DNA of 64,000 bases from positions 62,001 to 126,000 of the forward strand of contig NZ_CP009505.1 of assembly GCF_000970045.1 (NCBI RefSeq). The letters run 5' to 3'. This document shows positions 21,044 through 54,059 of the stretch, in pieces. A program made the translations under genes and the position numbers. The notes under the pieces are model-generated. The model saw only the letters and a list, made by a program, of their open reading frames with translations, was not told the DNA's origin and searched no databases. Positions within the stretch are counted from its first letter, which is position 1, and the number at the start of each line of letters is the position of its first letter. This DNA is from Methanosarcina sp. MTP4. Lineage in GTDB: Archaea; Halobacteriota; Methanosarcinia; Methanosarcinales; Methanosarcinaceae.

Positions 21044-21859
21044 TCAGGTTCGAAGTTTTCTCGGCTCAGTTAACTCGTTTCCACTTATTTCCCTTGCCTG
21101 TTCTTTATAATGCAAGATCAGGTCTTCAGCCCACTGAAGGGCTGCAGGTCCGAAACACAGGACGTTTTCCTGGTCAAAGGTGCCCTTATAGGTCAGGAAG
21201 TTGACCATCATAAAACATTCCGTTTTCGTGAGCATTGCTATTTTTATTTCATCTGAAAGCACGAACAACTTTTTTTTCTCCTGAGTTAGAAAATTCTCCA
21301 GTTCTTCTTTGAAGTCATTTTCAAATCTTGTAAAAACACCTTCAGTGACGATTAGAGTAATTTCGTTTTCCTCATCCTTTTTTTCGAGAAATGTTTTGAG
21401 GTATAATGGATGAAAAACCGAGCTTAGGGAGAGTATATGCTTTGATTTTTTTATATTCTCCATAAATTTTTTTGGAGGTTCAAAGATATTGTCGGGGTTG
21501 GGTCTGATCAGGGAACTGGGTTTCAATTCGTTAAGTCTTTCGAGAAAAGTAGTTGGCACCCCACTAAGGTCACGTTCCTGCCAGAAATCTTCGTTTTCCT
21601 CAATCACTTCCAGGATGTCCAGCAAGGGTTCCATTTTTTCTACGAGTATCTCTCCGAGGGGAGAAAGCACGTAGTCTCTGTCATTCTGGATTATCAGGTA
21701 CTCTTCTTTCAGTTTTTTGATCTGGGGCAGCATCCCTGTAGGGTTGACGTGAAGCTCGTCCACGATTTCATCTATATTTTTACTTCCTTTTTTTAGAAGG
21801 AGCAGGAGGTCTTTCCTTTTCTGGGACATGAAGAGCAGGTCAGTCAGGGTTTTTTCCAT
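21044..21859 (-). CDS. winged-helix regulator of the methanogen Msr/DUF1724 type
   Basis: The product is 271 residues from ATG 21859; a GTG at 21868 would add three residues. The N-terminal winged helix runs from about residue 5 to 80 (LLFMSQKRKDLLLLLKKGSKNIDEI; LSPLGEILVEKMEPLL). A longer C-terminal sensor-like domain follows, with LIVTEGVFTRFENDF and SSVFHPLYLKTFLEK. It is a paralogue of the regulator at 49291-50082. Msr proteins in Methanosarcina control methanol and methyl-sulfide methyltransferase genes. No methyltransferase gene is adjacent here, so the target is unknown. Confidence 0.82.
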   Translation of the reverse strand: MEKTLTDLLFMSQKRKDLLLLLKKGSKNIDEIVDELHVNPTGMLPQIKKLKEEYLIIQNDRDYVLSPLGEILVEKMEPLLDILEVIEENEDFWQERDLSGVPTTFLERLNELKPSSLIRPNPDNIFEPPKKFMENIKKSKHILSLSSVFHPLYLKTFLEKKDEENEITLIVTEGVFTRFENDFKEELENFLTQEKKKLFVLSDEIKIAMLTKTECFMMVNFLTYKGTFDQENVLCFGPAALQWAEDLILHYKEQAREISGNELTEPRKLRT

Positions 21860-39624: not shown

Positions 39625-39651
39625 AAAAACACCATCGGTTATGCTATATAT
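39625..39651 (+). promoter_or_regulatory. shared promoter module, site A
   Basis: Five A, then C-ACC-ATC-GGT, then TATGCTATATAT. The spacing is identical to the other four sites (40612, 41806, 43999, 51915). It lies at the head of duplicated element A, and no gene follows within 2 kb. Confidence 0.7.
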
Positions 39652-39669
39652 TTTTGAGTTATATTATTT

Positions 39670-40092
39670 ATTGCCAGTACGGCCCGGAAGAATTTGGGTT
39701 TTTCGCAAGGAGGACATGGAAGACCCGACTGCTCCTGTCCTGCCGGCCTGGATACGAAAAAACGGTTTCAAGCGTGGTAAGCATCCCTCATCCCACGCAA
39801 AGCTTTGAGGATTGACGGATTATGAATGTGAACCTCTTCAGGGAGTTCTCTTTGAAAAACGTCGGTTCTGCAAAGTTCGCTCCCATAAAAAATTTGAAGT
39901 GCGAAATGGACTTTGCTTCCATGAAAATATTAGCCTCTGAAATGAAAGCATCTCCACAAAAAAAGCTTTGCCCCTTTTGCGGGGTTTTATTTCCGAATAG
40001 TCCACTCTCGGGAATTTACTTCCAAAACGTAGTCGCTTTCATGGAAGCTTATTCCGGTAAAAAAAGGATAGTCTTTGATGACTATCCTTTTT
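39670..40092 (+). ncRNA. candidate non-coding RNA A (promoter to hairpin)
   Basis: If transcription starts about 25 bp after the TATA box of site A and stops at the hairpin at 40066-40087 with its T-run, the RNA would be about 420 nt. An internal AGGACA...TGTCCT pairing (about 39712-39743) is kept in copy B. No protein frame is conserved. The ends are inferred from position only. Confidence 0.4.
40066..40092 (+). terminator. intrinsic-type hairpin of element A
   Basis: A perfect 8-bp stem GGATAGTC/GACTATCC with loop TTTGAT, followed by TTTTT. The equivalent hairpin in element B is at 41064-41088. Confidence 0.75.
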
Positions 40093-40165
40093 GAATCATC
40101 CTCATGAGTTCTCTGGAAATTTCTGTGCCTTCTTGCGGGGGTTCAATCTTCCATATAAAAAGTGC

Positions 40166-40360
40166 AAGCGAACCTTCATTAAGCGAACCTGCATTAAGCG
40201 AACCTACATTAAGCGAACCTTCATTAAGCGAACCTTCATTAAGCGAACCTTCATTAAGCGAACCTACATTAAGCGAACCTTCATTAAGCGAACCTTCATT
40301 AAGCGAACCTTCATTAAGCGAACCTTCATTAAGCGAACCTTCATTAAGCGAACCTGCAAT
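40166..40360 (+). repeat. thirteen tandem 15-bp repeats inside element A
   Basis: The unit is AAGCGAACC(T/G/A)TCATT or close (consensus AAGCGAACCTTCATT). Copies 2 and 13 have a G and copies 3 and 7 an A at the variable position. The array is in exact register for 195 bases. The multiple-of-three length keeps three frames open across it, so the apparent repetitive proteins here are artefacts. Element B has only a single related GTGCAAACCCTACAAT at that place. Confidence 0.95.
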
Positions 40361-40611
40361 CTTGAGTTTCCCAACAGATGCATAGCCTTGAAGATAACTC
40401 ATGTGGATGAAAATTTGAAATTCAGCTTTTTCCGATTTAATCTTTTTAGTCTGAAATTGATTCTCTCAAAGTTTCTGCCAATTTCCTGATGTCTCAGATT
40501 CCAGTTTTTATCTAAAATATACTTAATTCTGGGGGTTGTCAACTCAGGACTTCCGGATATATCAGGAAGAAGTTTAGAATCAAAAGGCCTGTGAATATCA
40601 ACGACGTGTTG

Positions 40612-40638
40612 AAAAACAACACAGTTTATGCTATATAC
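40612..40638 (+). promoter_or_regulatory. shared promoter module, site B
   Basis: Five A, then C-AAC-ACA-GTT, then TATGCTATATAC. It is the least conserved of the five in the middle triplets, but the spacing and the TATA part are kept. Confidence 0.65.
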
Positions 40639-40659
40639 TTTAGAATTATTTTAGTTATT

Positions 40660-41088
40660 ACTTGGTCGGTCCGGAAGAATTTGGTCTTTCGGCAAGAAGG
40701 ACATGGAAGGCCCGCCTGCTCCTGTCCTGCCGGCTCGGATGTAAAAAACGGTGTCTTGCGTGGTGACATACCCTTATCCCATGCATGGCTTTGAAAATTG
40801 ACAGGTTATGGATGTTAATTAACCTTTTCAATGGGAGTTCTTCCCCTAAAAACAGCGGTTCTGCAAAGCCCGCTCCCATAAAAACGGTTGAAAACCCTTT
40901 AAATGGCTTTGCTTCCATAAAAAACGGCAGTCTCTGAAAAGAGGAGATCTAAAAAAAAACGGCTTGCCTCTTTTTGGAGTTATTTCCGAAAAAACGTTAG
41001 TTCCTTCGGGAATTTACTTCGAAAAACGTTAGTTCCCTTCCACAGGACTTTATTTCTGTAAAAAAGGATAGTTTTGACAGCTATCCTT
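40660..41088 (+). ncRNA. candidate non-coding RNA B (promoter to hairpin)
   Basis: Equivalent of candidate RNA A: about 430 nt from the expected start after site B to the hairpin AAGGATAG/CTATCCTT at 41064-41088. The conserved CTGCTCCTGTCCTGCCGGC segment and the pairing GGACA/TGTCC are present. The ends are inferred. Confidence 0.4.
41064..41088 (+). terminator. hairpin of element B
   Basis: An 8-bp stem AAGGATAG/CTATCCTT with a 9-base loop. The T-run after it is short (TTCTG), so it is weaker as a terminator than the copy-A hairpin. Confidence 0.55.
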
Positions 41089-41369
41089 CTGAATCATCCT
41101 TATGGGTTATTTAAGGTTCCTGAGTCTCCTTTCAGTGATCCGGCCATTCCAGATAAAAGTGTGTGCAAACCCTACAATTTTGGTTTTTCCAAAAGGTGCA
41201 GGAGCCGGAAATAACTCATGAGGGCTACACCTTCTTTTTTTCTCATATTCCAAAAACCCATACCTATCTATTTAATATTGACTTCTCCACTTTTTTTGTT
41301 GGTATATAGTATAAATCGAATAACTAACTATATGGTACCCTAAATCCTCTTTTTGGAAAATAGCATGAT

Positions 41370-41651
41370 ATGAAAATAAACCAGACAGAGGAATCAGATA
41401 TCATGCTAATTGTGCATCTTTCGGACATTCACTTTTCAGAAGCATATTATCTGCCGGAAATTGCGGATGCCATGATTGAAAGTATAAACCGGTATTCTCC
41501 GGATATTGTTGTAATTACGGGGGATCTGACGGAAAACGGGCTCTTCGCCATGTCCGGGTCCAAAGGGTGTTTGCAGGGGAGAAAAAGAACTGGCTGTGGA
41601 TACGATAATTTAAGTAAGTTGCGGGACTATCGAATGTACCGGTATTCTTGA
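41370..41651 (+). pseudogene. remnant of a calcineurin-like metallophosphoesterase
   Basis: From the internal ATG at 41403 the frame reads MLIVHLSDIHF, then SPDIVVITGDLTENG. These are the first two metal-binding motifs (DxH and GD) of the family. Right after TENGLF the similarity stops and a short unrelated tail follows. A different frame nearby (about 41566-41610) reads GEKELAVDTII, which looks like a protein C-terminus. A full enzyme would need about 180 more residues with GN(H/D) and GHxH motifs. An internal deletion plus frameshift is the simplest reading. Confidence 0.65.
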
Positions 41652-41805
41652 ATTTGCTCTTCTCCAGTGCTAATTCGGAATTTTCCCTTCTCTTCTTTTA
41701 TATATATTTTCCCCCTTTAATATTTCGTACCTTATGATATTTCACACCTTGCGATATTCCACACTTTCCAATATTGCACTCTCCTTCGGAATTCCTATCT
41801 CCAGG

Positions 41806-41832
41806 AAAAATAGTATGGGCTATGTTATATCT
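41806..41832 (+). promoter_or_regulatory. shared promoter module, site C (first ASKHA gene)
   Basis: Five A, then T-AGT-ATG-GGC, then TATGTTATATCT. The TATA centre lies about 27 bp before ATG 41855, so the transcript should be leaderless or nearly so. Confidence 0.7.
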
Positions 41833-41854
41833 TTTTGAAAATAAACCTAATCCT

Positions 41855-43810
41855 ATGAAACTCGGTCTGGGAATCGATACCGGAGGCACATATACTGATG
41901 CCGTTATTATGGATCTTTCGGAAGGGAAAGTTCTTGCTTCCAATAAAGCATTAACGACGCATTCGAACCTGATTGAAGGAATTGAAAACGTAATTGCAGG
42001 TCTGGACCAGGAATATCTGGAGCACGTCAAACTTGTTTCCGTTTCTACGACTCTTGCCACCAACTCTACGCTTGAAGGAAAAGGCCACCATGCGGGTTTG
42101 ATCCTTTCCGGCTACTCTGTGAGCGGGGAAGTCCCTGCCAGGGATATGGTGACCGTAAATGGAGGGCATGATTCAAAAGGAAATGAAATAGGTAGACTGG
42201 ATCTGGCAGCTGTGGAGGAATTTGTCAGCAACACCAAGAACAGGTTATCTTCCTACGCAGTATCTTCTTATTTTGCCATCCGCAACCCCGAACATGAGCT
42301 TGCAATAAAGGAAACCGTAGAGCGCCTTACCAGCAAGCCCGTGGTCTGCGGGCATGAGCTTTCCCTGGACCTGGGAGCCTACGAAAGAGCGGTTACGGCT
42401 ACTTTGAACGCCCGCCTGATCCCTATAAATTCCCATTTCATCCGGGCAGTCCTCTCAGTAATGGAAGTGAGAAACATCAGAGCTCCCCTGATGGTCATGA
42501 AATGCGACGGCTCCCTGGCCAGGATAGAGGACGCCGTTGAAAAGCCGGTTGAGTCCATTTTTTCAGGGCCTGCAGCAAGTCTTGTAGGGGCTGCGCACAT
42601 CAGTGGACTGAAAAACTGTGTTGCAGTGGACATAGGGGGCACCAGTACCGATATAGCCCTTATCGAGAACGGGGTCCCGGAAATCAGTGAAAACGGTGCT
42701 ATCGTAGGGAACTGGAGGACAATGGTCCGGGCAGTCAGGATCCAGACTTCGGCACTGGGTGGGGACAGCCACGTCTGGGTACAGAAAAAACTCTGCATAG
42801 GACCTCACAGGGTCGTCCCTCTCTGCCTTGCAGCTTCCCGTTATCCTTCCCTTGTGGACCGGCTGCTGGAAGGGGAAAAACCTTCTGAAAGGATAATGGA
42901 CGATATCCTCCAGCCAACCAGCTTCTTTGTCAGGAGCGGGCATCCGGATTCCGAAGAAGACCTGCATTCTCTTAATTACGTAATCGAGTTCGAACTTAAC
43001 GATTACGAACGCCGGGTCCTTGACCTGATAGAATATGAGCCGATTTCGGTTTATGACATCTCGGAAAAAATCGGGAAGCATCCCCTTTACTTTGCAAAAG
43101 CCCTGCGTTCCCTGGTCCAGAAGCACTGCATCTGTCATATTGGGTTTACTCCCACGGATGCTCTCCATGTGCTGGGGGACTACGAAGCCTGGGACAGGGC
43201 GGCTTCTTTGCTTGGGGCGGAACTCCTCGGCCGTCATCTGGGCCTGGATGAGGAAGGGTTTTCCAGGGAGATAAAGAAAAACTTTGCAAAGAATGTCGCT
43301 CTTGATCTGCTGACCTTTCTTGCAAAGGACTTCAAGCGGGAGAACCTTGAAAAATTGATGGAAGGCTCCAGGTTTATGAAGTACAAAATCACGACGCCTG
43401 TAGTGATGATCGGAGCCCCGGTGAAAGCTTACGTGTCCGAACTCCGGGAGTTTATCGATGCGGACATCAGGGTCCCCGAGTTCCATGAGGTGGGCAATGC
43501 CGTTGGAGCTCTTGTAGGAAACATAATCAAAAGAAGTGAAATTCTTGTCCGTCCGGTGGGGTCCGGGTCTGACCGATACCACGTTTTTTCGGAAAAGGAA
43601 AGGAAAGTCGCGGACAGCTACACGGAAGCCCTGGATTACGGGTTTGAACTCATGGAACAGCTTATTTTCGAGCATATGGACGGTCACGGGCTCCTGAAGG
43701 AGCAGGTCCGATTCGATCTTGAAAGGAAAGACTTCAATCCGGGATACGGAGCCTCGAAAGAGACCCGCCTGTCAGGTCTTGGGGTAGGAAGTCCACTGAA
43801 ACTCAAATAA
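41855..43810 (+). CDS. hydantoinase/oxoprolinase-like ASKHA protein, copy 1
   Basis: The product is 651 residues from ATG 41855; the frame runs further up, but the promoter module overlaps that part. The first phosphate motif is GLGIDTGGTYTDAV (residues 3-16), and the second is VAVDIGGTSTDIALIENG near residue 257. SGPAASLVGAAH is between them. This matches the HyuA/oxoprolinase N-terminal fold. No HyuB partner is present. From about residue 385 to 430 lies a winged-helix-like insertion (ERRVLDLIEYEP...VYDISEKIG...ALRSLVQKHCI), followed by GFTPTDALHVLG. Reaction unknown. Its promoter and location argue for a role in methyl-sulfide metabolism. Confidence 0.8.
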   Translation: MKLGLGIDTGGTYTDAVIMDLSEGKVLASNKALTTHSNLIEGIENVIAGLDQEYLEHVKLVSVSTTLATNSTLEGKGHHAGLILSGYSVSGEVPARDMVTVNGGHDSKGNEIGRLDLAAVEEFVSNTKNRLSSYAVSSYFAIRNPEHELAIKETVERLTSKPVVCGHELSLDLGAYERAVTATLNARLIPINSHFIRAVLSVMEVRNIRAPLMVMKCDGSLARIEDAVEKPVESIFSGPAASLVGAAHISGLKNCVAVDIGGTSTDIALIENGVPEISENGAIVGNWRTMVRAVRIQTSALGGDSHVWVQKKLCIGPHRVVPLCLAASRYPSLVDRLLEGEKPSERIMDDILQPTSFFVRSGHPDSEEDLHSLNYVIEFELNDYERRVLDLIEYEPISVYDISEKIGKHPLYFAKALRSLVQKHCICHIGFTPTDALHVLGDYEAWDRAASLLGAELLGRHLGLDEEGFSREIKKNFAKNVALDLLTFLAKDFKRENLEKLMEGSRFMKYKITTPVVMIGAPVKAYVSELREFIDADIRVPEFHEVGNAVGALVGNIIKRSEILVRPVGSGSDRYHVFSEKERKVADSYTEALDYGFELMEQLIFEHMDGHGLLKEQVRFDLERKDFNPGYGASKETRLSGLGVGSPLKLK

Positions 43811-43998
43811 ACCCCAGGCAAAAACTTTCTTTTTAAAATCATTTCTTTTTACCCTCCCCGGTTAATTCTTCATGAAGTTTCCGGGTCTGATTTTGTCACG
43901 GGCTTTGATAATCTCAAACCCTTTGCTTAGTTTCTTCCATTTGATTCTCCCGGGGGCTCTGTCGAGGTGAAACCGGCTGATTCAATCAAAACCCGGAA

Positions 43999-44025
43999 AA
44001 AAACGCCATCAGCTATGTTATATAT
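43999..44025 (+). promoter_or_regulatory. shared promoter module, site D (second ASKHA gene)
   Basis: Five A, then C-GCC-ATC-AGC, then TATGTTATATAT. It is almost identical to site E. The TATA centre is about 22 bp before ATG 44043 and 34 bp before ATG 44055. Confidence 0.75.
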
Positions 44026-44042
44026 TCAGATCTCCGAAATAT

Positions 44043-46010
44043 ATGATGAGTAATATGAAGTTTGGTTTAGGGATCGATACGGGTGGCACATACACTGATG
44101 CCGTTATAATGGACCTTTCAGACGGAAGAGTCCTTGAAACGAACAAGACCCTGACTACTCATTCGGACCTCATTCAGGGAATAGAAGGGGTAATCTCCGG
44201 TCTGAACCCCGGGTACCTGAAAGATATCAGGCTGGTTTCTGTTTCAACAACCCTTGCAACGAACTCAACCCTGGAAGGAAAAGGGCATCCTGCAGGCCTG
44301 ATCCTTGCAGGGTATTCGATTAATAGGGAACTGCCTGTCCAGCATATGGTTTCCGTTAGCGGTGGCCATGATGCTAACGGGGGTGAGGCAGATCTGCTGG
44401 ATCTGGATACGGTCAGGGACTTTGTTAACGCTACAAAAAGCAGGGTTTTTTCATATGCAATCTCTTCATACTTTGCCGCCCGGAACCCTGAACATGAACT
44501 TTCCATAAAACAGTGTATTCAGGACCTGACGGAAAGGCCGGTCGTATGCGGACATGAACTTTCCATGGATCTTGGGGCTTACGAAAGGGCGGCTACGGCC
44601 ACTCTGAACTCTCGTCTGATTCCTATTAATTCCCTGTTTATCCGGTCCGTTCTGGCTGCAATGCGTGCGAGAAATATCAATGCCCCTCTCATGGTTATGA
44701 AATGTGACGGCTCTCTTGCCAGGCTGGAAGAAGCAGAGGAAAAGCCTGTAGAATCCATTTTTTCGGGCCCTGCCGCAAGCCTTGTTGGGGCTGCGCATAT
44801 AAGCGGGCTAAAAGATTGCATAGCCGTGGACGTAGGGGGCACAAGTACCGATATTGCCTTTATCAAAAACGGAGTCCCGGAGATCAGTGAGACCGGGGCG
44901 GTTGTCGGGGACTGGAAAACAATGGTCCGGGCGATCAGGATGAGGACCTCGGCAGTGGGTGGGGACAGCCATGTCTGGATGCGGAATAAGTTTTTTATAG
45001 GACCTAACAGGGTTATTCCCCTCTGTCTGGCAGCAGAGCGTTTCCCGAACCTTATTGATAAGCTTTCCAGACCCGGGAAACTCCGTGAAAGGGTCATGGA
45101 CGACATCCTGCAGCCTACAAGTTTCTTTGTCAGGAGCCACCTGGTCGAAACTTACGAAGATTATTCGACCTCTAATTACGCGGTTGAATTCGAAATGGAC
45201 AGGTACGAAAGGAAAATCTTTGGAGTTGTTGGGGATGAACCGGTCTCTGTAGCCGAGCTTTCCGAAAAAACAGGGGACCACCCCCTCCTCTTTACAAAAA
45301 CCCTGCGTTCCCTTGTCCAGAAACGCTGCATAAGCCAGATAGGGTTTACCCCTACCGATGCCCTTCACGTGCTCGGGGAGTATGAAGCCTGGGAAGGGGC
45401 AGCATCCCGCCTGGGTGCAAAAATTCTCGGCAGGGCTCTCGGACAGGGGGAAGAGGACTTTTGCAGGGCTATTAAACAAAAGTTTGCAAAGAATATTGCT
45501 CTGGAATTAATTGCTTTTTTTGTAAGGGACCTCAGGAAAAGCGATCTTGAAAAAGTTATGGACAGTTCGGATTGTACCAAATTTAAGATAACCGTCCCTG
45601 TGGTGCTGATAGGGGCTCCGGTCAGGGCTTATGTTGATGAATTGCTTGAGTTTGTTGATGCGGATATCCGGATTCCGGAATACCATGAGGTCGGAAATGC
45701 CGTTGGAGCCCTTGTAGGGAACATAATCAAGCGAAGTGAGGTCCTGATCCGCCCGGCAGGGCCCGGAAATGAGAAATACCTGGTATTTTCGGAAAAAGAA
45801 AGAAAAATATCCGGGAATTACCAGGAAGCTCTGGCTTACGGGCTTGAGCTGAGCGAACGCCTGATCTCCGAGCACATGGGGGTTTACGGGCTTGACCGGG
45901 AACAGGTTTTTTTCAACCTGGAAAGAAAGGATACCCGGAAAGGAGCGGGATCCCCTCTGGAAACAAAGTTGCTAGGGATTGGAATCGGAAGCCCCTTGAA
46001 ACTGAAATGA
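44043..46010 (+). CDS. hydantoinase/oxoprolinase-like ASKHA protein, copy 2
   Basis: The product is 655 residues, or 651 from ATG 44055, which matches the start of copy 1. It is a close paralogue of the 41855-43810 protein with the same order of motifs: GLGIDTGGTYTDAV, SGPAASLVGAAH, AVDVGGTSTDIAFIKNG, the winged-helix-like insertion (KIFGVVGDEPVSVAELSEK) and GFTPTDALHVLG. Sequence similarity is high throughout, so the pair is a tandem duplication kept intact. The gene has its own copy of the promoter module. Confidence 0.8.
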   Translation: MMSNMKFGLGIDTGGTYTDAVIMDLSDGRVLETNKTLTTHSDLIQGIEGVISGLNPGYLKDIRLVSVSTTLATNSTLEGKGHPAGLILAGYSINRELPVQHMVSVSGGHDANGGEADLLDLDTVRDFVNATKSRVFSYAISSYFAARNPEHELSIKQCIQDLTERPVVCGHELSMDLGAYERAATATLNSRLIPINSLFIRSVLAAMRARNINAPLMVMKCDGSLARLEEAEEKPVESIFSGPAASLVGAAHISGLKDCIAVDVGGTSTDIAFIKNGVPEISETGAVVGDWKTMVRAIRMRTSAVGGDSHVWMRNKFFIGPNRVIPLCLAAERFPNLIDKLSRPGKLRERVMDDILQPTSFFVRSHLVETYEDYSTSNYAVEFEMDRYERKIFGVVGDEPVSVAELSEKTGDHPLLFTKTLRSLVQKRCISQIGFTPTDALHVLGEYEAWEGAASRLGAKILGRALGQGEEDFCRAIKQKFAKNIALELIAFFVRDLRKSDLEKVMDSSDCTKFKITVPVVLIGAPVRAYVDELLEFVDADIRIPEYHEVGNAVGALVGNIIKRSEVLIRPAGPGNEKYLVFSEKERKISGNYQEALAYGLELSERLISEHMGVYGLDREQVFFNLERKDTRKGAGSPLETKLLGIGIGSPLKLK

Positions 46011-46085
46011 AGGGTAAATTCTTTTTTGTTTTTTCGGACCTGGCTTTCCTTATCAGGAGAATCAAAACCCAGGGATAAAGAATAA

Positions 46086-49028
46086 ATGACACGGATTGAT
46101 ATGAAACTGGAAACTCTTGTTAATAACGGCCCTGCAGTTATTTTTCTCTGCAGGGCAGAAACTGGCTGGCCTGTGGAAATGGTTACTGAAAACGTTTCCA
46201 GGTTAGGGTATTCCCTGGAAGATTTTGTTGAAGGAAGCCTGGGGTATGCTGATATTATATACCCTGCAGACCTGGAAATGGCTGTTTCTCAGTTTTCCGC
46301 TTATGCAGAAAAAGAGTACAATGGTGAGGACAGAGAACACAAAGAGGAAGACAGAGGGCACGGCACCTTTACCCAGCAATACAGGCTCCTGAACAAATCC
46401 GGAGACGTGCTATGGGTCGAAGCTGAAATTCAGGTTTTGAAGAAAGAGGTTGGAAATGCAGGTTCTTTCCAGATCACTGTCTTTGACATCTCCCGGTGGA
46501 AACAGACTGAAAAATCAATGCTCAATGCCCTTGATACGGAAAAAGAATTTAAAAGAATCATTAACAGTGGGCATGCAATTGTCTTCCTCTGGAGAGCAGA
46601 ACCGGGCTGGCCGGTCGATTTTGTCTCTGAAAACGTATCTGGACTCGGATATACGCCTGAAGATTTCACCTCAAGGAATATCGTTTATACCGATATTATA
46701 CACCCCGAGGACCTGGAAAAGGTTAAGGTAGAAGTTTCAAAGAATTCCAAAGAGGGCCGGGACTACTTTAGCAAGGAATACCGGGTCCTGATGAAATCCG
46801 GAAAGGTCCGTTATATGGACGAAAGGACCCTGATCCGGAGAAATGAAAAAGGCGAAGTTACCTGTTACCAGGGTATACTCCTGGATATTACCAAACGTAA
46901 ACAGGCTGAGGAGCTTATCTTGAGCCAGAACCGGGTACTTGAAAGGATAGCTTCGGGAGCTTCCCTTGATGAAGTGCTCCTGCTCCTTGTCAACTACGCC
47001 GAAGAAATGAAACCAGGGCTCTTGTGCACGGTAATGCTTCTGGACAGGGAGCAAAAACGTCTTTTCTACGGGGCATGTCCAAGCCTTCCGAAACTTTATT
47101 CTAAGGCTATCAACGGGATGAAGATAAAGGTTAATAACGGGGCTGCCGGAACCGCTGCCGGGACTGCTGCAAGGACCGGAAAGCGTGTAATCGTAGGAAA
47201 CATCATGAAAGACCCCTTCTGTGAGGAGTGCCGGGAAATTGCACAAAAAGTAGGCTTGAAGGCCTGCTGGGCAGAACCCATATTTTCTTCGGGGGGTGAG
47301 GTGCTTGGGGTATTCACGATTTATCTGCGTGAAACAAGGAAGCCCCGCGAAGAGGAACTTGAGTTTATCAGGACAAATGCATACCTTGCAGGCATCGCAA
47401 TCGAACATGCTCAGGACGCAGAAGCTCTAAAGGAATCGGAAAAAAGGTTCAGGACAATCTTTGACAATATCAATGACCAGCTTTACATCCGGGAGCCGGA
47501 TGGAATAAGTTACATGGATGTGAACCAGGCTGTTGTGAACAGGCTCGGCTACAGCAAGGAAGAAATCCTGAACATGGAAGCCGAAGAGATCATTCCTTCT
47601 AATTACTGGGCTTCGGTCAGGGAAAACATGCAGAAGATAAAGGCCGAAGGTTCCAGGATTTTTGAAGCAGGAGCAGTTTGCAAAGACGGGACCGTTATCC
47701 CGCTTGAGGTGAGTGCCAGGATCATTGATTACGGAGGCAAAAAGACCATCCTTTCCGTCTCCAGGGACATCACTGAACGCAAAAAAGCCGAAGCTGCACA
47801 GAGGCTCAACGAATCCAGGCTTGAAACCCTTGTAAAACTTGAACAGATGGCGGGTGCCTCCCTGAAAGAGATCACGGACTTTGCCAGGGAAGAAGCGGTC
47901 CGGCTGACCGGCAGCAAACTCGGGTACCTGGCTTTTATGGACGCATACGAAAGCACCCTTGTAATGCATTCCTGGTCTGACAGTGTGATGGAAGAGTGTT
48001 CGATTGAAGATAAGCAGTTCATCTACCCGGTAAAGAGTATGGGGCTTTGGGGAGAGGCTGCAAGACAGCGAAAACCAATCATTACCAATAATTATCCCGC
48101 CCCTAACCCCCTCAAGAAAGGGTGTCCGAAAAACCATGTGCATCTGACCAGGCATCTGAATATCCCGGTCTTTGACGGAAAGCGGATAGTTGCCGTTGCA
48201 GGGGTGGGAAACAAAGGGGAAGACTATGACGAATCGGATGTTCGGCAGCTAACTCTGCTAATGCAGGGTATGTGGCAGCTGATCCAGAGAAAACAGCTCG
48301 AAGAAGCCCTCAGGGCATATTCCGGGGAACTATCCAGGGCGAATGAGGCACTCAGTTCCATGAACATGATGAAAACCGAATTCATGGAAGAAGTGATGTT
48401 CCCGGAAAAAGTGGAATATGAGGAAATTATGGATTTTGAGACGCTTTATGCTATTGACAGCCAGCAGCAAAAGGCGGTTAACACCTTTATCCATTATTCA
48501 GAAAAGCTGCGCCGCCTTGTTGATTCCCTTCTGTACCAGAGCCTGGAAAAGGCAGGAAAGATCGAATATTTCTTTGAAGAGACACAGCTAAGGGACGTCC
48601 TCTCTGATGCTTTCTTAAACAATATTTTCCTGATCGATGAAAAAGGCCTGGAGGTTGAAAAAGAAGTCCCTGCCAGTTTGCCTGAAATTAAAGGTGACAG
48701 GGAAAAATTGACAGTCCTTTTTACTGCTCTTGTCGACTATGCCATAAAATTCATTCCGCAGGGAGGAAAGCTGGCATTGGAAGTAAAAGAAGAGGCAGAT
48801 AATGTCCACATAGTGATCGTGGACAGTGGAAAGGGCATAAGTAAAGAACTTATACCCTATCTCTTTGACCGGCTTTACCAGGTCAACGACTCCGTAAGTC
48901 GCAGGTACCAGGGGCTTGAATCGGGGCTCTATATCTGTAAAGACATTGTCGATGCCCATAAAGGAGAGATCTGGTTCGAAAGTGAGGACGTTTCGGGTAC
49001 CCTTATGCATGTGAAACTCCCAAAGTGA
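46086..49028 (+). CDS. msmS: multidomain PAS/GAF sensor kinase, MsmS-like heme sensor
   Basis: The product is 980 residues and soluble. Order by eye: PAS about 10-130, PAS about 150-280, GAF about 280-445, PAS about 450-572, GAF about 585-740, helical linker, HATPase domain about 860-980. In the second GAF, Cys638 (MEECSIEDK) and His684 (CPKNHVHL) fit, with a constant offset of 18, the heme-linked Cys656 and axial His702 that I recall for M. acetivorans MsmS. MsmS responds to redox state or dimethyl sulfide and acts on methyl-sulfide genes through a neighbouring Msr regulator. The phospho-acceptor H-box is degenerate (KTEFMEEVMFPEKVEYEE, no SHELRTP), and the N-box Asn is replaced (LVDYAIKF). 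DSGKGIS is intact. Confidence 0.8.
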   Translation: MTRIDMKLETLVNNGPAVIFLCRAETGWPVEMVTENVSRLGYSLEDFVEGSLGYADIIYPADLEMAVSQFSAYAEKEYNGEDREHKEEDRGHGTFTQQYRLLNKSGDVLWVEAEIQVLKKEVGNAGSFQITVFDISRWKQTEKSMLNALDTEKEFKRIINSGHAIVFLWRAEPGWPVDFVSENVSGLGYTPEDFTSRNIVYTDIIHPEDLEKVKVEVSKNSKEGRDYFSKEYRVLMKSGKVRYMDERTLIRRNEKGEVTCYQGILLDITKRKQAEELILSQNRVLERIASGASLDEVLLLLVNYAEEMKPGLLCTVMLLDREQKRLFYGACPSLPKLYSKAINGMKIKVNNGAAGTAAGTAARTGKRVIVGNIMKDPFCEECREIAQKVGLKACWAEPIFSSGGEVLGVFTIYLRETRKPREEELEFIRTNAYLAGIAIEHAQDAEALKESEKRFRTIFDNINDQLYIREPDGISYMDVNQAVVNRLGYSKEEILNMEAEEIIPSNYWASVRENMQKIKAEGSRIFEAGAVCKDGTVIPLEVSARIIDYGGKKTILSVSRDITERKKAEAAQRLNESRLETLVKLEQMAGASLKEITDFAREEAVRLTGSKLGYLAFMDAYESTLVMHSWSDSVMEECSIEDKQFIYPVKSMGLWGEAARQRKPIITNNYPAPNPLKKGCPKNHVHLTRHLNIPVFDGKRIVAVAGVGNKGEDYDESDVRQLTLLMQGMWQLIQRKQLEEALRAYSGELSRANEALSSMNMMKTEFMEEVMFPEKVEYEEIMDFETLYAIDSQQQKAVNTFIHYSEKLRRLVDSLLYQSLEKAGKIEYFFEETQLRDVLSDAFLNNIFLIDEKGLEVEKEVPASLPEIKGDREKLTVLFTALVDYAIKFIPQGGKLALEVKEEADNVHIVIVDSGKGISKELIPYLFDRLYQVNDSVSRRYQGLESGLYICKDIVDAHKGEIWFESEDVSGTLMHVKLPK

Positions 49029-49099
49029 TAACTCTTTGAATGGTAATCCTTTAATGGTAAATCCCAGAATTTCAACGCCTTGAATTAAAAAATCCGGAA

Positions 49100-49147
49100 T
49101 TAGAAGTGAGTAATTAGAAGTGAGTAATTAGAAGTGAGTAATTAGAA
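49100..49147 (+). repeat. three tandem 14-bp repeats
   Basis: The unit is ATTAGAAGTGAGTA, in exact register, between the sensor and regulator genes. It lies in the probable promoter or leader of the regulator gene. Confidence 0.9.
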
Positions 49148-49290
49148 AGAAGGAGGAATTAAGGCAAACAGGATAGAAGCAGGATTAAAAATAGCTTATT
49201 TAGTTCTGGGAGGGGGGCTTTTTGTCAATATAAAAATTTCATGTACTGGATGCAGGATAACTCAGTGTAGAAAATTGCGAGTGAGTTGGA

Positions 49291-50082
49291 ATGAAACTGG
49301 AATTGTTGGGAACTTTATTCCTATCTGATAAGAGAAAAGATCTTCTGCTACTGTTGATCGAAAGGCCCAGGGAAATCGAAGAGATCAAGAATACTCTTAA
49401 TGGGAGCTCGAGTGCGATTATGACCCAGATCAAGATCCTGATAGGGCAGGGACTGATCGTTCATGAGGGGGACATGTACAAACTTTCAAGCATGGGGGAA
49501 GTGATCGTAAACAAGATGGAGCCCCTCCTGAACACCCTGAACGTATACGAAGAAAACAGGGATTACTGGCAAAACCATAACGTAAATTCCATCCCTTCCT
49601 CCCTCCTGAACCAGATCGAAGTTCTGGGGCACTGCGAACTTGTCGAGCCTGAACTGGACCGGATGTACGATCTCCCAAAGCGAATCGAAGCCGAACTCTT
49701 TAAATCAACGTACCTGATGGAAGTTTCCTCTTATTTCAGTCCTGCCCTTCCTTCCCTGTATCTCAAACTAATAAGAAAGGGGATCAACGTTTCCTTAATT
49801 ATTACCGAGCCTGTCTTTGAAAGGTTCAGGAATGAATACGTTGAACTCCTGGAAGAGTACCTCAATAAGGAAAATGCGAATTTGTTCGTATGTGCTTGCA
49901 ATATAGGGCTTGCCTCGAGCACTGTTACCGACCGCTTTCTTGCCCTTTCCTTTTTTTATAAAAACGGAATATACCACAATCATGCACTGATGAGCGTTGA
50001 AAAAGGCTCGATAAGCTGGGGGGAGAGCCTTTTTCTTCATTACAGAAAAAACTCACGGCAAATTACTAAATCGGAACTCTAA
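49291..50082 (+). CDS. Msr-type winged-helix regulator of methyltransferase genes
   Basis: The product is 263 residues. An N-terminal winged helix (LLGTLFLSDKRKDLLLLLIE; SSSAIMTQIKILIGQGLIV) is followed by a C-terminal domain with LIITEPVFERFRNEYVELL. It is related to the regulator at 21044-21859. Its place directly after the MsmS-like sensor, with an Mts gene downstream, matches the arrangement I recall for M. acetivorans msmS, msrG and mtsH. It probably activates some or all of the genes that carry the shared promoter module; that is inference. Confidence 0.85.
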   Translation: MKLELLGTLFLSDKRKDLLLLLIERPREIEEIKNTLNGSSSAIMTQIKILIGQGLIVHEGDMYKLSSMGEVIVNKMEPLLNTLNVYEENRDYWQNHNVNSIPSSLLNQIEVLGHCELVEPELDRMYDLPKRIEAELFKSTYLMEVSSYFSPALPSLYLKLIRKGINVSLIITEPVFERFRNEYVELLEEYLNKENANLFVCACNIGLASSTVTDRFLALSFFYKNGIYHNHALMSVEKGSISWGESLFLHYRKNSRQITKSEL

Positions 50083-50183
50083 AATCCAATTAGAAACATA
50101 ATTACAATTGAAAAATAATGCAATAAAAAATCCAATAAAATAATGCAATTTAAAAAAAATTCAATAAAAAATTATAGAGACAC

Positions 50184-51332
50184 ATGACTGATTACAATTT
50201 AAGAGATCGTTTCCTGAATGTGTTGAAGGGGAAAGCCGTGGATAGGGCGCCGGTACTTTCCGTTACCCAGACAGGAACTGTTTCTCTTATGGAAAAATGC
50301 GGGGCTTTCTGGCCTGAAGCCCACAGCAACCCTGAAAAAATGGCAGCTCTCTCTCTGGCTGCCCATGAAATTACGAGACTGGAGGCTGTAAGGTATCCTT
50401 ACTGCGTAACAGTACTCTCAGAAGCGATGGGGTGTAAGGTTAGCAGGGGAACAAAGGAGACCCAGCCCTATGTAACATTTCCTCCCCTTGGAAACTCAGG
50501 GGAATTGCCGGAAATTCCGTATTCCTTGCTGGAAAAGGGCAGGATCCCTACGGTTCTGGAAGCAACTGCTCTCCTGAAGAATAAAACTGAAGGGACTCTT
50601 CCCCTGATCGTGGGAATAGAAAGTCCGGCTGCTCTTTGTTCCAGGCTTCTGGGGGCGGGCAACTACCTGAGACAGCTTCTTAAATCCCCTGACTATATCA
50701 GGGAATGCCTGGAAATCAATACTGATGCCTGCATTGAGTATGCAAATGCCCTTTTTGAGGAGGGGGTGGATGCAGTTTGTGTCCCGGACGGCATATCGGG
50801 CCCTGACCTTTTGAACCTGGAGATTTTCGACCTTTTAATAAAACCTGCTTACAGGCGTTTTTGTAAGAAGGTAAAAGGGCCCAAAATACTGCATATGTGT
50901 GGAGATGCTTCACCTTTTCTTGGGACCCTCTCTGAATGCGGTTTCGAGGGCATTAGTGTTGAAGAAAAGGTCCGGGACCTGAAAAGTGCAAAGAAAAATC
51001 TCGGAAATGGGATCTGCCTTATAGGAAACGTTTCCAGTTCTTCGACTCTCCTTTGCGGCAGCCGTGAAGATGTAAAAGAGGAAGCAAGAAAAGCCCTGGA
51101 AGGAGGGGTTGATATCCTTGCTCCGGGCTGTGGAATTGCGCCCATGACTCCTCTTGAAAATATGAAGGCACTGGTAGAAGCCAGAGATGAGTATTACGGT
51201 TCTGTTTTTTCCTGTTTTGAAGACTGCAAGTCCAAATGTTACGAATCTAAATCTTATGGGTCGGGATGTCATGAATCCAAATATCGTGAATCTGAATCTT
51301 ATGAATCTAAATGTTACGAACCCGAATACTGA
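50184..51332 (+). CDS. methylcobamide:CoM methyltransferase (MtaA/MtbA family)
   Basis: The product is 382 residues, a uroporphyrinogen-decarboxylase-fold enzyme. The zinc ligands of the MtaA/MtbA type are visible: His237 and Cys239 in LHMCGD, and Cys316 in APGCGIAP. It moves a methyl group from a corrinoid protein to coenzyme M. The enzyme proper ends near residue 347. The last 35 residues are a Cys/Ser/Glu/Lys/Tyr-rich tail of five-residue repeats encoded by 15-bp tandem DNA repeats and are not typical of the family. A candidate partner is the Mts protein, which however has its own methyltransferase domain. Confidence 0.88.
   Translation: MTDYNLRDRFLNVLKGKAVDRAPVLSVTQTGTVSLMEKCGAFWPEAHSNPEKMAALSLAAHEITRLEAVRYPYCVTVLSEAMGCKVSRGTKETQPYVTFPPLGNSGELPEIPYSLLEKGRIPTVLEATALLKNKTEGTLPLIVGIESPAALCSRLLGAGNYLRQLLKSPDYIRECLEINTDACIEYANALFEEGVDAVCVPDGISGPDLLNLEIFDLLIKPAYRRFCKKVKGPKILHMCGDASPFLGTLSECGFEGISVEEKVRDLKSAKKNLGNGICLIGNVSSSSTLLCGSREDVKEEARKALEGGVDILAPGCGIAPMTPLENMKALVEARDEYYGSVFSCFEDCKSKCYESKSYGSGCHESKYRESESYESKCYEPEY
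51226..51332 (+). repeat. 15-bp coding tandem repeat in the MtaA/MtbA-like gene
   Basis: About seven degenerate copies of a unit like TGTTACGAATCTAAA form the last 100 bases of the gene, up to the stop. They produce (Y/C)-x-ESK-type pentapeptides. Confidence 0.85.
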
Positions 51333-51914
51333 TAACCGACTTAATTAACTTTAAATCCTCCTTTATCCCACATTTCTACCCCCTGCCAAGTGGGGAACAT
51401 AATTCATGTATATTGGCCAATTACATAATATATTATCAATAAAGTAACACATTTGTACCATGCTTTTGTACAAAAATGTCATAATTAGAAATGTGGGTTT
51501 ATGATTTGAATTTAATTTCTTAACCTGAATTTGAATTTCTCATTGATATAACCTCATCGATGTAATATCTTCTTAATCAGATATTTTCCCTTTTAAAAGG
51601 AGCTGAGGTTTTCCTGTATTTTTGAGACTTTTTTGATATTTTTGATATTTTTGAGGGGGGTTTGAGCCTTTTTTGAGATCTTTTTGAGAACATTATGTTC
51701 CGGAATATGGCATTGATATTATCAAAGTGTTTGATAATTTCCGGGATTCTTCCTATACTCGTGGTCCTGTCGGTGTCAGGGGTCAGGAGATATTCTGGCA
51801 GGCTGTCAATATCGAGACCCCCTTGAATCCTTGAAGTCCTGTCAACATCAAAAGCTTTGAAAATATCGGGAAATAGGTTTCTATCAAAAGGCCCGGAAAA
51901 ATCAGATCTAGGGG
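51333..51914. other. intergenic region upstream of the Mts promoter
   Basis: About 580 bases, AT-rich, with runs of TTTTTGATATTTTTGA (51633-51690). No gene. Close to the promoter module the text TATCAAAAGGCCCGGAAAAA (51885-51904) resembles ATCAAAACCCGGAAAAAAA before site D and ATCAAAAGGCCTG before site B, so the conserved promoter may extend upstream. Confidence 0.6.
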
Positions 51915-51941
51915 AAAAACGCCATCGCTTATGCTATATAT
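51915..51941 (+). promoter_or_regulatory. shared promoter module, site E (Mts gene)
   Basis: Five A, then C-GCC-ATC-GCT, then TATGCTATATAT. The expected start site is near 51967, which leaves a 5' leader of about 150 bases before ATG 52119. Confidence 0.8.
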
Positions 51942-52118: not shown

Positions 52119-54059
52119 ATGGCAATCGGAAATGAGAATCAAGGAGCGGACGCTATCTCTGAAGAAGATATATTCCGGCAGATGGCTGAAGCAGTTGTTG
52201 ATGGAGACGACGATATCATAGAAGAACTTGCAAACAAGGTACTTGAGCTTAACATTGACCCATATACCGCAATCGTTGAAGGGCTTACCAAAGGCATGTC
52301 CGTTGTAAGTGACATGTATGAGAACGGGGAAGCCTTCGTCCCGAACCTCATGGTTTCCGCAGGTGCGATGTACGAAGGGCTGGATATCCTCTCTCCCTAC
52401 TTGAAGACTGATTCAACAAACAAGCCTTCGAAGATCATTATCGGGACAGTCGAAGGCGACGTGCACGACATCGGCAAGAACCTTGTCAAGACAATGATGA
52501 CCGCAGCTGGTTTTGACATGGTCGACCTGGGTTCGGACGTGACCCTCAGCAGTTTTGTAAGCAGCGCAAGGGACCAACAAGCCGATGCTATTTCCATGAG
52601 CACACTCATGACAACAACCATGCCCGGCATGGAAAAGGTCATTGAACAGCTCAAGGAAGAAGGGTTAAGGGACTCTCTTCTGGTCATGGTTGGCGGTGCT
52701 CCCATCAATGCGGACTATGCGGAAAAAATAGGGGCTGACGCAACAAAAAATGACGCAAGTCAAGCTACCGAATGGTTAACAGGAGCTATTGCCGAACTTC
52801 CAGATGCTGATCTGAGATGGAGTGAGAAACAGATCAGCCTTAACAAAGTAAAGTACAAGGAAGAGCTTGCAAAGAAGGTCACGGTCGAAGCCGTGGATAT
52901 AGGGCTCGAATCTGCAAAGGCTATCATCGAAGAGTTCGAGAGTGTGGGCGTAAAGACAAAGGAATCCATGACGCACACCGACAGGTCTCTCGCTGCCCTT
53001 GCTGATAAAAAGGTGGACCGTCTGCCTGTCTATCCTCTGGCATGCGGAGTCCTGAGGAAGTTTGCTCCCGTGACCTACAAGGAGTATGCCACAAACGAGG
53101 AGGCTTTCGTCCAGAGCGCTTACCTTGGATCAAAGTACCTGGACCTCGATATGTTTGTTGGGCTGGTCGACCTTTCCATCACCTCGGCGGACCTGGGATG
53201 CGGGATCAAGTTCCCTGAAGAAGATACTCCTTCCTCCGAGGGCCACCTTGAAGACTATGAAAAGATCGAGGTCCCCGAAGTCAAAGAAGGGACCCGGGCC
53301 TACGAACTGATTCAAGCAACAAAGCTTGGAAAAGCCAAACTGAACAGCGAATTGGAAACTCCGATGGTTGGCTTCCATGAAGGTCCCCTCCTTACCCTGA
53401 CCCAGCTCATGGGCGCAAGCCGGGTGCTCGGCGATATCAACACCAACCCTGATGTTGTGCTCAAAGCCGTGGACAAATGTGCGGACTACGTAGCCGAAGT
53501 CTCCAGGGCTTTCTTTGAGGAAGATGCCTGTGACGCGCTCTGTATCGACAACCTCTGGTCCAACAACGTCATCATGGGACACGACGACTACTGGAAGTTC
53601 GACGGGCAGTTTGTGTACGACAAGCACGTCCCGGTCTTCAAGGAATACAACCAGCCTTATATCGTCCACAACTGTGCCGATGCTGTCCACTACGATCTTC
53701 AGATTTCTAAGTTCGGGACAGCCCTGTACAGCTATGCCTATTATCCCTCAGGGAAGGATAAGGGCTCCTACAGTTACGACGAACTCATCCCGAAGTACGG
53801 GGAAACCTGCTGCATGATGGGTGAAGTGGACCCGATCCAGTTCCTGGACAACTCTCCGGAAGGCATCCAGAAAATTAGAAACGACACGGAAAGCAACCTG
53901 AGAGGTGCTGTCCAGACCCTTAAAGAGAACGGTTTACAGTCCAAGTACGTGCTGTCTACTGGCTGTGAAATCCCGCCCGGAGCACCTCTTGACACCTCGA
54001 AAGCAATGGTCGATGTAGTCAAGGAACTCGGACCTGAACTCCAGAAGATGATGGGATAA
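52119..54059 (+). CDS. mtsH: fused corrinoid protein/methyltransferase, methyl-sulfide (Mts) type
   Basis: The product is 646 residues. Residues 1-215 form a corrinoid-binding protein: helical cap, then GDVHDIGKN with His116 as the lower cobalt ligand, and SMSTLMTTTM. Residues 270-646 form a UroD-fold methyltransferase with a zinc site, His517 and Cys519 (HNCADAVH) and Cys616 (TGCEIPPG). Fusion of these parts is the mark of MtsD, MtsF and MtsH, which use dimethyl sulfide, methanethiol or methylmercaptopropionate and feed CoM. The letter H is chosen from remembered synteny with msmS and mrp and is not certain. AGGAGG lies 8 bases before the ATG. Expression probably depends on the Msr regulator and promoter module. 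Confidence 0.88.
   Translation: MAIGNENQGADAISEEDIFRQMAEAVVDGDDDIIEELANKVLELNIDPYTAIVEGLTKGMSVVSDMYENGEAFVPNLMVSAGAMYEGLDILSPYLKTDSTNKPSKIIIGTVEGDVHDIGKNLVKTMMTAAGFDMVDLGSDVTLSSFVSSARDQQADAISMSTLMTTTMPGMEKVIEQLKEEGLRDSLLVMVGGAPINADYAEKIGADATKNDASQATEWLTGAIAELPDADLRWSEKQISLNKVKYKEELAKKVTVEAVDIGLESAKAIIEEFESVGVKTKESMTHTDRSLAALADKKVDRLPVYPLACGVLRKFAPVTYKEYATNEEAFVQSAYLGSKYLDLDMFVGLVDLSITSADLGCGIKFPEEDTPSSEGHLEDYEKIEVPEVKEGTRAYELIQATKLGKAKLNSELETPMVGFHEGPLLTLTQLMGASRVLGDINTNPDVVLKAVDKCADYVAEVSRAFFEEDACDALCIDNLWSNNVIMGHDDYWKFDGQFVYDKHVPVFKEYNQPYIVHNCADAVHYDLQISKFGTALYSYAYYPSGKDKGSYSYDELIPKYGETCCMMGEVDPIQFLDNSPEGIQKIRNDTESNLRGAVQTLKENGLQSKYVLSTGCEIPPGAPLDTSKAMVDVVKELGPELQKMMG

Follow-up and report, generated by a model that had tools for sequence, protein, structure and literature searches.

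A 26-bp signature as a probable common on-switch of methyl-transfer genes in Methanosarcinaceae

A recurrent block in a methyltransferase gene cluster

We analysed a 64-kb stretch of the genome of Methanosarcina sp. MTP4 (contig NZ_CP009505.1, positions 62,001 to 126,000; hereafter the window, numbered from its first base), in which a short promoter-like module recurs in and just upstream of a cluster of methyltransferase, helper and regulator genes. A 26-bp block is present in five gap-free copies, all on the plus strand and with constant internal spacing, which lie in front of the following features:

39625..39650, plus strand: module copy 1, AAAAACACCATCGGTTATGCTATATA; putative promoter of element E1; 0 mismatches to the refined pattern (see below)
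40612..40637, plus strand: module copy 2, AAAAACAACACAGTTTATGCTATATA; putative promoter of element E2; 3 mismatches to the refined pattern
41806..41831, plus strand: module copy 3, AAAAATAGTATGGGCTATGTTATATC; putative promoter of ASKHA1, with the ATG 23 nt away
43999..44024, plus strand: module copy 4, AAAAACGCCATCAGCTATGTTATATA; putative promoter of ASKHA2, 18–21 nt from the ATG pair at 44043/44046
51915..51940, plus strand: module copy 5, AAAAACGCCATCGCTTATGCTATATA; putative promoter of the mts gene, whose ATG lies ~178 nt beyond the end of the module

The elements and genes of the cluster are:

39672..40095, plus strand: element E1, a putative structured RNA (z −3.6)
40659..41090, plus strand: element E2, a putative RNA and tandem paralog of E1, 75% identical to it (z −2.7)
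41855..43810, plus strand: ASKHA1, a hydantoinase_A/hydant_A_N protein and candidate corrinoid reactivase
44043..46010, plus strand: ASKHA2, a paralog of ASKHA1
46086..49028, plus strand: PAS/GAF sensor kinase-like protein, with an 86%-identical copy in the same place in the related genome G074; probably of MsmS type, judging by synteny
49291..50082, plus strand: Msr-family regulator (PF08350, FilR1_middle) with an ArsR-like helix-turn-helix (HTH)
50184..51332, plus strand: MtaA-type methylcobamide:coenzyme M methyltransferase (499 bits, cutoff 400)
52119..54059, plus strand: fused corrinoid/methyltransferase protein of the Mts type and mtsH-like; the G074 copy, in the same gene order, shares 93% identity

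The cluster from ASKHA1 through ASKHA2, the kinase, Msr and MtaA to Mts is collinear with that of G074, at 77–93% protein identity, and by synteny it is probably the mtsH-msrG-msmS region. Kinases of this type, in which the H-box is missing, have been discussed previously (PMC11784639).

The recurrence itself, five copies with identical spacing, had been proposed in an initial annotation of this DNA and is borne out by exact matches to AAAAA-N9-YTATGYTATAT at 39625, 40612, 41806, 43999 and 51915. With up to two mismatches allowed, this pattern has 6 matches in the window against 0.19 expected, a number reached by 0 of 100 shuffled sequences. As also described there, two copies precede duplicated elements and three precede genes (ASKHA1, ASKHA2 and the mts gene). 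A (C)ATC-like triplet had been attributed to every copy; (C)ATC is present in only three, the copies at 40612 and 41806 having ACA and ATG, respectively, and the latter copy ends in TATATC. Because E1 and E2 are tandem duplicates, as are ASKHA1 and ASKHA2 (71–77% identical in aligned blocks), the five copies do not represent five independent events. The block is nonetheless kept, as can be read from the orthologous copies in other species and from unrelated gene families.

Across gene families, the consensus is AAAA-N5-RTSGGYTANGNTATATA. With sites aligned and averaged over twelve gene families, each column carries 0.99 bit of information within the 26 bp, against 0.18 and 0.14 bit in the two flanks; pattern-based selection of sites contributes to the inside value but not to the sharp edges. 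The conserved block of the initial annotation thus exists and reaches past a plain TATA box, as had been claimed, but its length is 26 bp rather than 27, with background on both sides. Its right half covers the TATA box, and its left half consists of an A-tract followed by RTSGG. The core promoter of Methanosarcina comprises a transcription factor B (TFB)-recognition element (BRE) of sequence CAAAA, two bases, and the TATA box TTTATATA, with transcription starting ~23 bp downstream (PMC11409679). The module has no such purine-rich BRE 2 bp upstream of its TATA box, where its consensus reads CGGYT. At ASKHA1, the end of the TATA box is separated from the ATG by only 22–23 nt in five genomes, that of MTP4 and four others, and the mRNA is therefore probably leaderless, unlike those of the mts genes, which have long leaders.

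Rarity and target genes of the module

The module is rare. In the complete 4.21-Mb genome, AAAAA-N9-YTATGYTATAT has 6 exact matches against 0 for the reversed control, the sixth being located ~250 bp ahead of a further mts gene, which itself follows an Msr gene. The refined pattern AAAAAYNNYRTCGGYTATGCTATATA with up to three mismatches retrieves the same six sites only, again with 0 in the reversed control. A looser 25-mer with two mismatches performs at chance level (49 matches versus 50 reversed) and was not used alone. In 112 Methanosarcinaceae genomes, the refined pattern finds 92 sites versus 5 reversed controls. The scans of this genome and of its relatives that the initial annotation had proposed therefore place the motif far from random frequency and reveal an excess of sites upstream of mts and mta genes and near Msr genes. 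Together with the window shuffles and the reversed controls, they rule out chance occurrence.

We inspected the downstream genes for a large share of the 92 sites, naming the proteins with NCBIfam. Most of the inspected sites precede mtsF/mtsH-type, mtaC, mtbC or other methylamine corrinoid genes, ASKHA, CobW-type or Msr genes, or the non-coding locus described below; named targets include fused Mts proteins, the methanol corrinoid protein MtaC and the dimethylamine corrinoid protein MtbC. In genus g6, methylamine-type corrinoid genes are nearly the sole site of the module, and a broader form of the pattern at up to two mismatches adds mtaC2 and one Msr gene to the targets. We also checked the association free of motif-based selection, picking mts genes by protein similarity alone and then searching their upstream regions: 25 of the 26 mtsF/mts3-type genes carry the module (≤2 mismatches) at positions −226 to −295, and none of the 15 mtsD genes does. 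Among the genetically known Msr targets (listed in PMC3960522), mtaC1, mtaC2 and mtsF have it and mtsD does not.

The assignment of the module to one methyl-sulfide region was thus too narrow: its presence at mtaC and mtbC and its absence from mtsD rule out a regulon restricted to methyl sulfides. As judged from these upstream sequences, it is almost restricted, across the related archaea, to the corrinoid-methyltransferase gene set, within which it extends beyond methyl sulfide but leaves some genes unmarked, and it is probably a common on-switch of methanol, methylamine and methyl-sulfide methyl-transfer genes.

In the Methanosarcina genomes examined (for instance, L032, L117 and L119), mtsD has a conserved promoter block of its own, TAATNAAATNNCTGCGTTTATGTTATATG, ~110 bp upstream. 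Three genomes (L205, L206 and L207) retain a module of the mtsF type together with an Msr-family gene, but what follows is the gene of a CobW-type GTPase; no Mts gene was among the matches listed for these genomes in the Mts protein search. In L215 and L268, a module variant lies near a PAS/GAF kinase gene, in L215 also near an Msr gene, with no long open reading frame (ORF) close downstream; this variant possibly drives another non-coding transcript.

The non-coding locus upstream of ASKHA1

E1 and E2 are apparently tandem copies of a structured non-coding locus. Both are predicted to fold more stably than shuffled versions, and the end of E1 is formed by a perfect 13-bp hairpin (40061–40092) with a T run. 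The locus, which lies upstream of ASKHA1, is present in at least five other species. In G074, it likewise lies between mrpG and ASKHA1, is preceded by the module as putative promoter and begins with similar bases (GCCAGT...CCCGGA); four further genomes (G081, G083, G084 and G097) have homologs 77–82% identical to the G074 locus, and G096 has a diverged form. An alignment of five species predicts a closing helix in which CCAGTAAATCCCGGA pairs with its complement ~300 nt downstream, and a weaker closure, CCGGAA/TTCCGG, is possible in E1 and G096. Since only 5 of 75 pairs change on both sides, the structural evidence is modest. Neither E1 nor E2 matches any curated Rfam family. A 30-codon ORF behind GGAGG in E1 was considered as a small-protein gene and rejected: E2 breaks the frame after 13 codons, the relatives lack a corresponding frame, and their indels are not multiples of three. 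E1 is accordingly treated as non-coding.

The surroundings of the locus hold two further features. Between E1 and E2 (40166–40360), a 15-bp unit, AAGCGAACCTTCATT, is repeated head to tail in ~13 copies. At 41390–41620, we found a remnant of a metallophosphoesterase-like gene, the start of which resembles a G074 gene before the similarity breaks off; in G074, the gene is apparently intact between the E locus and ASKHA1, and in G081, only its tail is present. A second family of apparent non-coding loci, frequently present in multiple copies within a genome, occurs in L256, L257, L269, L275 and L279, where the conserved hairpin pair AGATTGAGAGTTTAAGGGTTTCCTCTCAATC... follows the promoter core CGGTTATGATATATA; this family, too, has no Rfam match.

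Candidate readers of the module and known systems

Msr genes are enriched near the module. The MTP4 genome contains about 32 PF08350 genes, and such a gene is found no more than 2 kb away from 7 of its 16 sites, compared with 3.2% at random (P 3e-7), and from 4 of 10 sites in G074 (P 1e-5), with the qualification that the test treats clustered sites as independent and the P values are optimistic; among chance-level matches taken for comparison, 1 of 39 lies that close. Genetically, Msr proteins act as activators of mtaCB1, mtaCB2, mtsD and mtsF (PMC3960522, PMC11619418), and FilR1, another PF08350 protein, binds and activates promoters (PMC3991700). These observations support the Msr family as the putative reader of the module.

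We propose, with a probability of roughly 0.6, that the module is a regulated core promoter of the Methanosarcinaceae corrinoid-dependent methyltransferase gene set, read by one or more activators of the Msr/FilR1 family. This set would include the mtsF/mtsH-type genes, mtaC, mtbC, other methylamine corrinoid genes, the ASKHA and CobW-type helpers and the linked non-coding locus. The left half of the block (A-tract and RTSGG) would be a protein-binding site overlapping the place where TFB contacts the BRE. Its binder, which we infer to be an activator rather than a repressor, would most likely be an ArsR-like winged-helix protein of the Msr/FilR1 family (PF08350), or a few paralogs accepting the same core. 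Once bound, it would recruit TFB or replace its BRE contact, so that the promoter would fire only on the signal of a methylated substrate.

Apart from the optimistic P values, several points weigh against this proposal. The Msr-controlled mtsD carries the module in 0 of 15 genes and has a different promoter, and variants of the module do not follow the HTH similarity of the neighbouring Msr proteins. Some of the sites with 2–3 mismatches lie ahead of genes without a clear link to methyltransferases, and a few 3-mismatch sites in other genera have unrelated genes downstream. In M. mazei, moreover, an mtbC construct with only ~36 nt upstream of the start is still inducible (PMC11549558), and the A-tract may thus be dispensable at that promoter, one where the module was not located.

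The initial annotation had favoured a common regulator, plausibly the Msr protein encoded at 49291, which would serve all five copies as the dedicated regulator of a local methyl-sulfide regulon. The proposal of an Msr-type reader agrees with the enrichment of Msr genes near module sites, here and elsewhere, and this particular gene belongs to the same cluster, 1.9–10 kb from the copies, and G074 preserves the whole order, including the modules ahead of ASKHA1, ASKHA2 and mtsH. However, the block also precedes mtaC1, mtbC and mtsF, and the HTH of Msr 49291 shares only 38–52% identity with those of the Msr proteins neighbouring the module-carrying genes mtsF, mts3, mtaC1 and mtbC. Because its closest paralog (73% identical in the HTH) serves mtsD, which has no module, Msr 49291 as the sole regulator is doubtful, and a family-wide or global regulator fits better. 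Elsewhere in the window (21071–21775, minus strand), there is an Msr-like stretch 34% identical to the 49291 gene, the N-terminus being outside the match. Either the core tolerates several Msr paralogs, or one global factor reads it while local Msr proteins act elsewhere. The latter arrangement, with a master Msr-like or ArsR-type regulator or a variant of TFB or the TATA-binding protein reading the block and local Msr proteins adding substrate specificity from other sites, is possible, if somewhat unlikely. It would account for a block common to different substrates where the local HTHs differ and has a precedent in M. mazei, where a single ArsR-type regulator, MM2441, has been proposed to affect the mta, mtb, mtt and mtm operons together (PMC3510493); but no candidate factor was identified, and on its own, this model leaves the strong Msr adjacency unexplained.

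Readings that dispense with a specific regulator fare worse. The TATA box is suitably spaced from the ATGs of the apparently leaderless ASKHA genes, as would be expected if the block were an ordinary strong BRE and TATA promoter of highly expressed genes, but with 6 occurrences in 4.2 Mb, a BRE position that departs from CAAAA and functionally restricted targets, this is improbable, being largely ruled out by rarity in the genome-wide scan and by the sequence itself. Even less probable is the view that the copies are leftovers of tandem duplication without selected function: E1/E2 and ASKHA1/ASKHA2 are indeed tandem duplicates, but orthologs in other species and genera retain the site although its flanks diverge, a conservation that rules out duplication as the sole explanation. 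Far more speculatively than our proposal of an Msr/FilR1-read core promoter, Msr proteins might define a BRE-less promoter class, in which they would take the place of the TFB-BRE contact and serve the corrinoid methyltransferase genes as an alternative means of recruitment; the structured RNA of E1/E2, regulated together with these genes, might act in trans on the mRNAs of methyltransferases or reactivases.

The choice that Methanosarcina makes among methanol, methylamines and methyl sulfides is understood at the genetic level, through the Msr regulators. A 26-bp block that marks the gene set across genera offers a concrete sequence to mutate, to footprint and to use for predicting members of the set, among them a structured RNA locus and so far unstudied helper genes of the ASKHA and CobW types. 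Compared with the Methanosarcina core promoter (PMC11409679), the module shares the TATA element and the apparent distance to the start, but has RTSGGYT at the BRE position and an A-tract at a fixed spacing further upstream, and its occurrence is restricted to a single functional gene set. The FilR1 protein of Methanosaeta (Methanothrix) harundinacea, which shares its Pfam family with Msr, binds and activates methanogenesis promoters, but is a two-component response regulator with acetate-pathway targets, and the searched text of PMC3991700 defines no site sequence for it. The sRNA162/MM2441 circuit of M. mazei (PMC3510493) likewise links a non-coding RNA to an ArsR-type regulator of methyltransferase genes, whereas E1/E2 lie upstream of ASKHA1 and not beside MM2441. 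We found no cis site for Msr regulators in the literature searched, the main mtaCB promoter studies lying outside it, and an earlier description is possible. Relative to the known Msr regulators MsrA-H and their targets mtaCB1-3, mtsD and mtsF (PMC3960522, PMC11619418), the module marks several of the same targets, with PF08350 genes adjoining its sites, but it is absent from the known target mtsD and adds ASKHA, CobW-type and non-coding targets.

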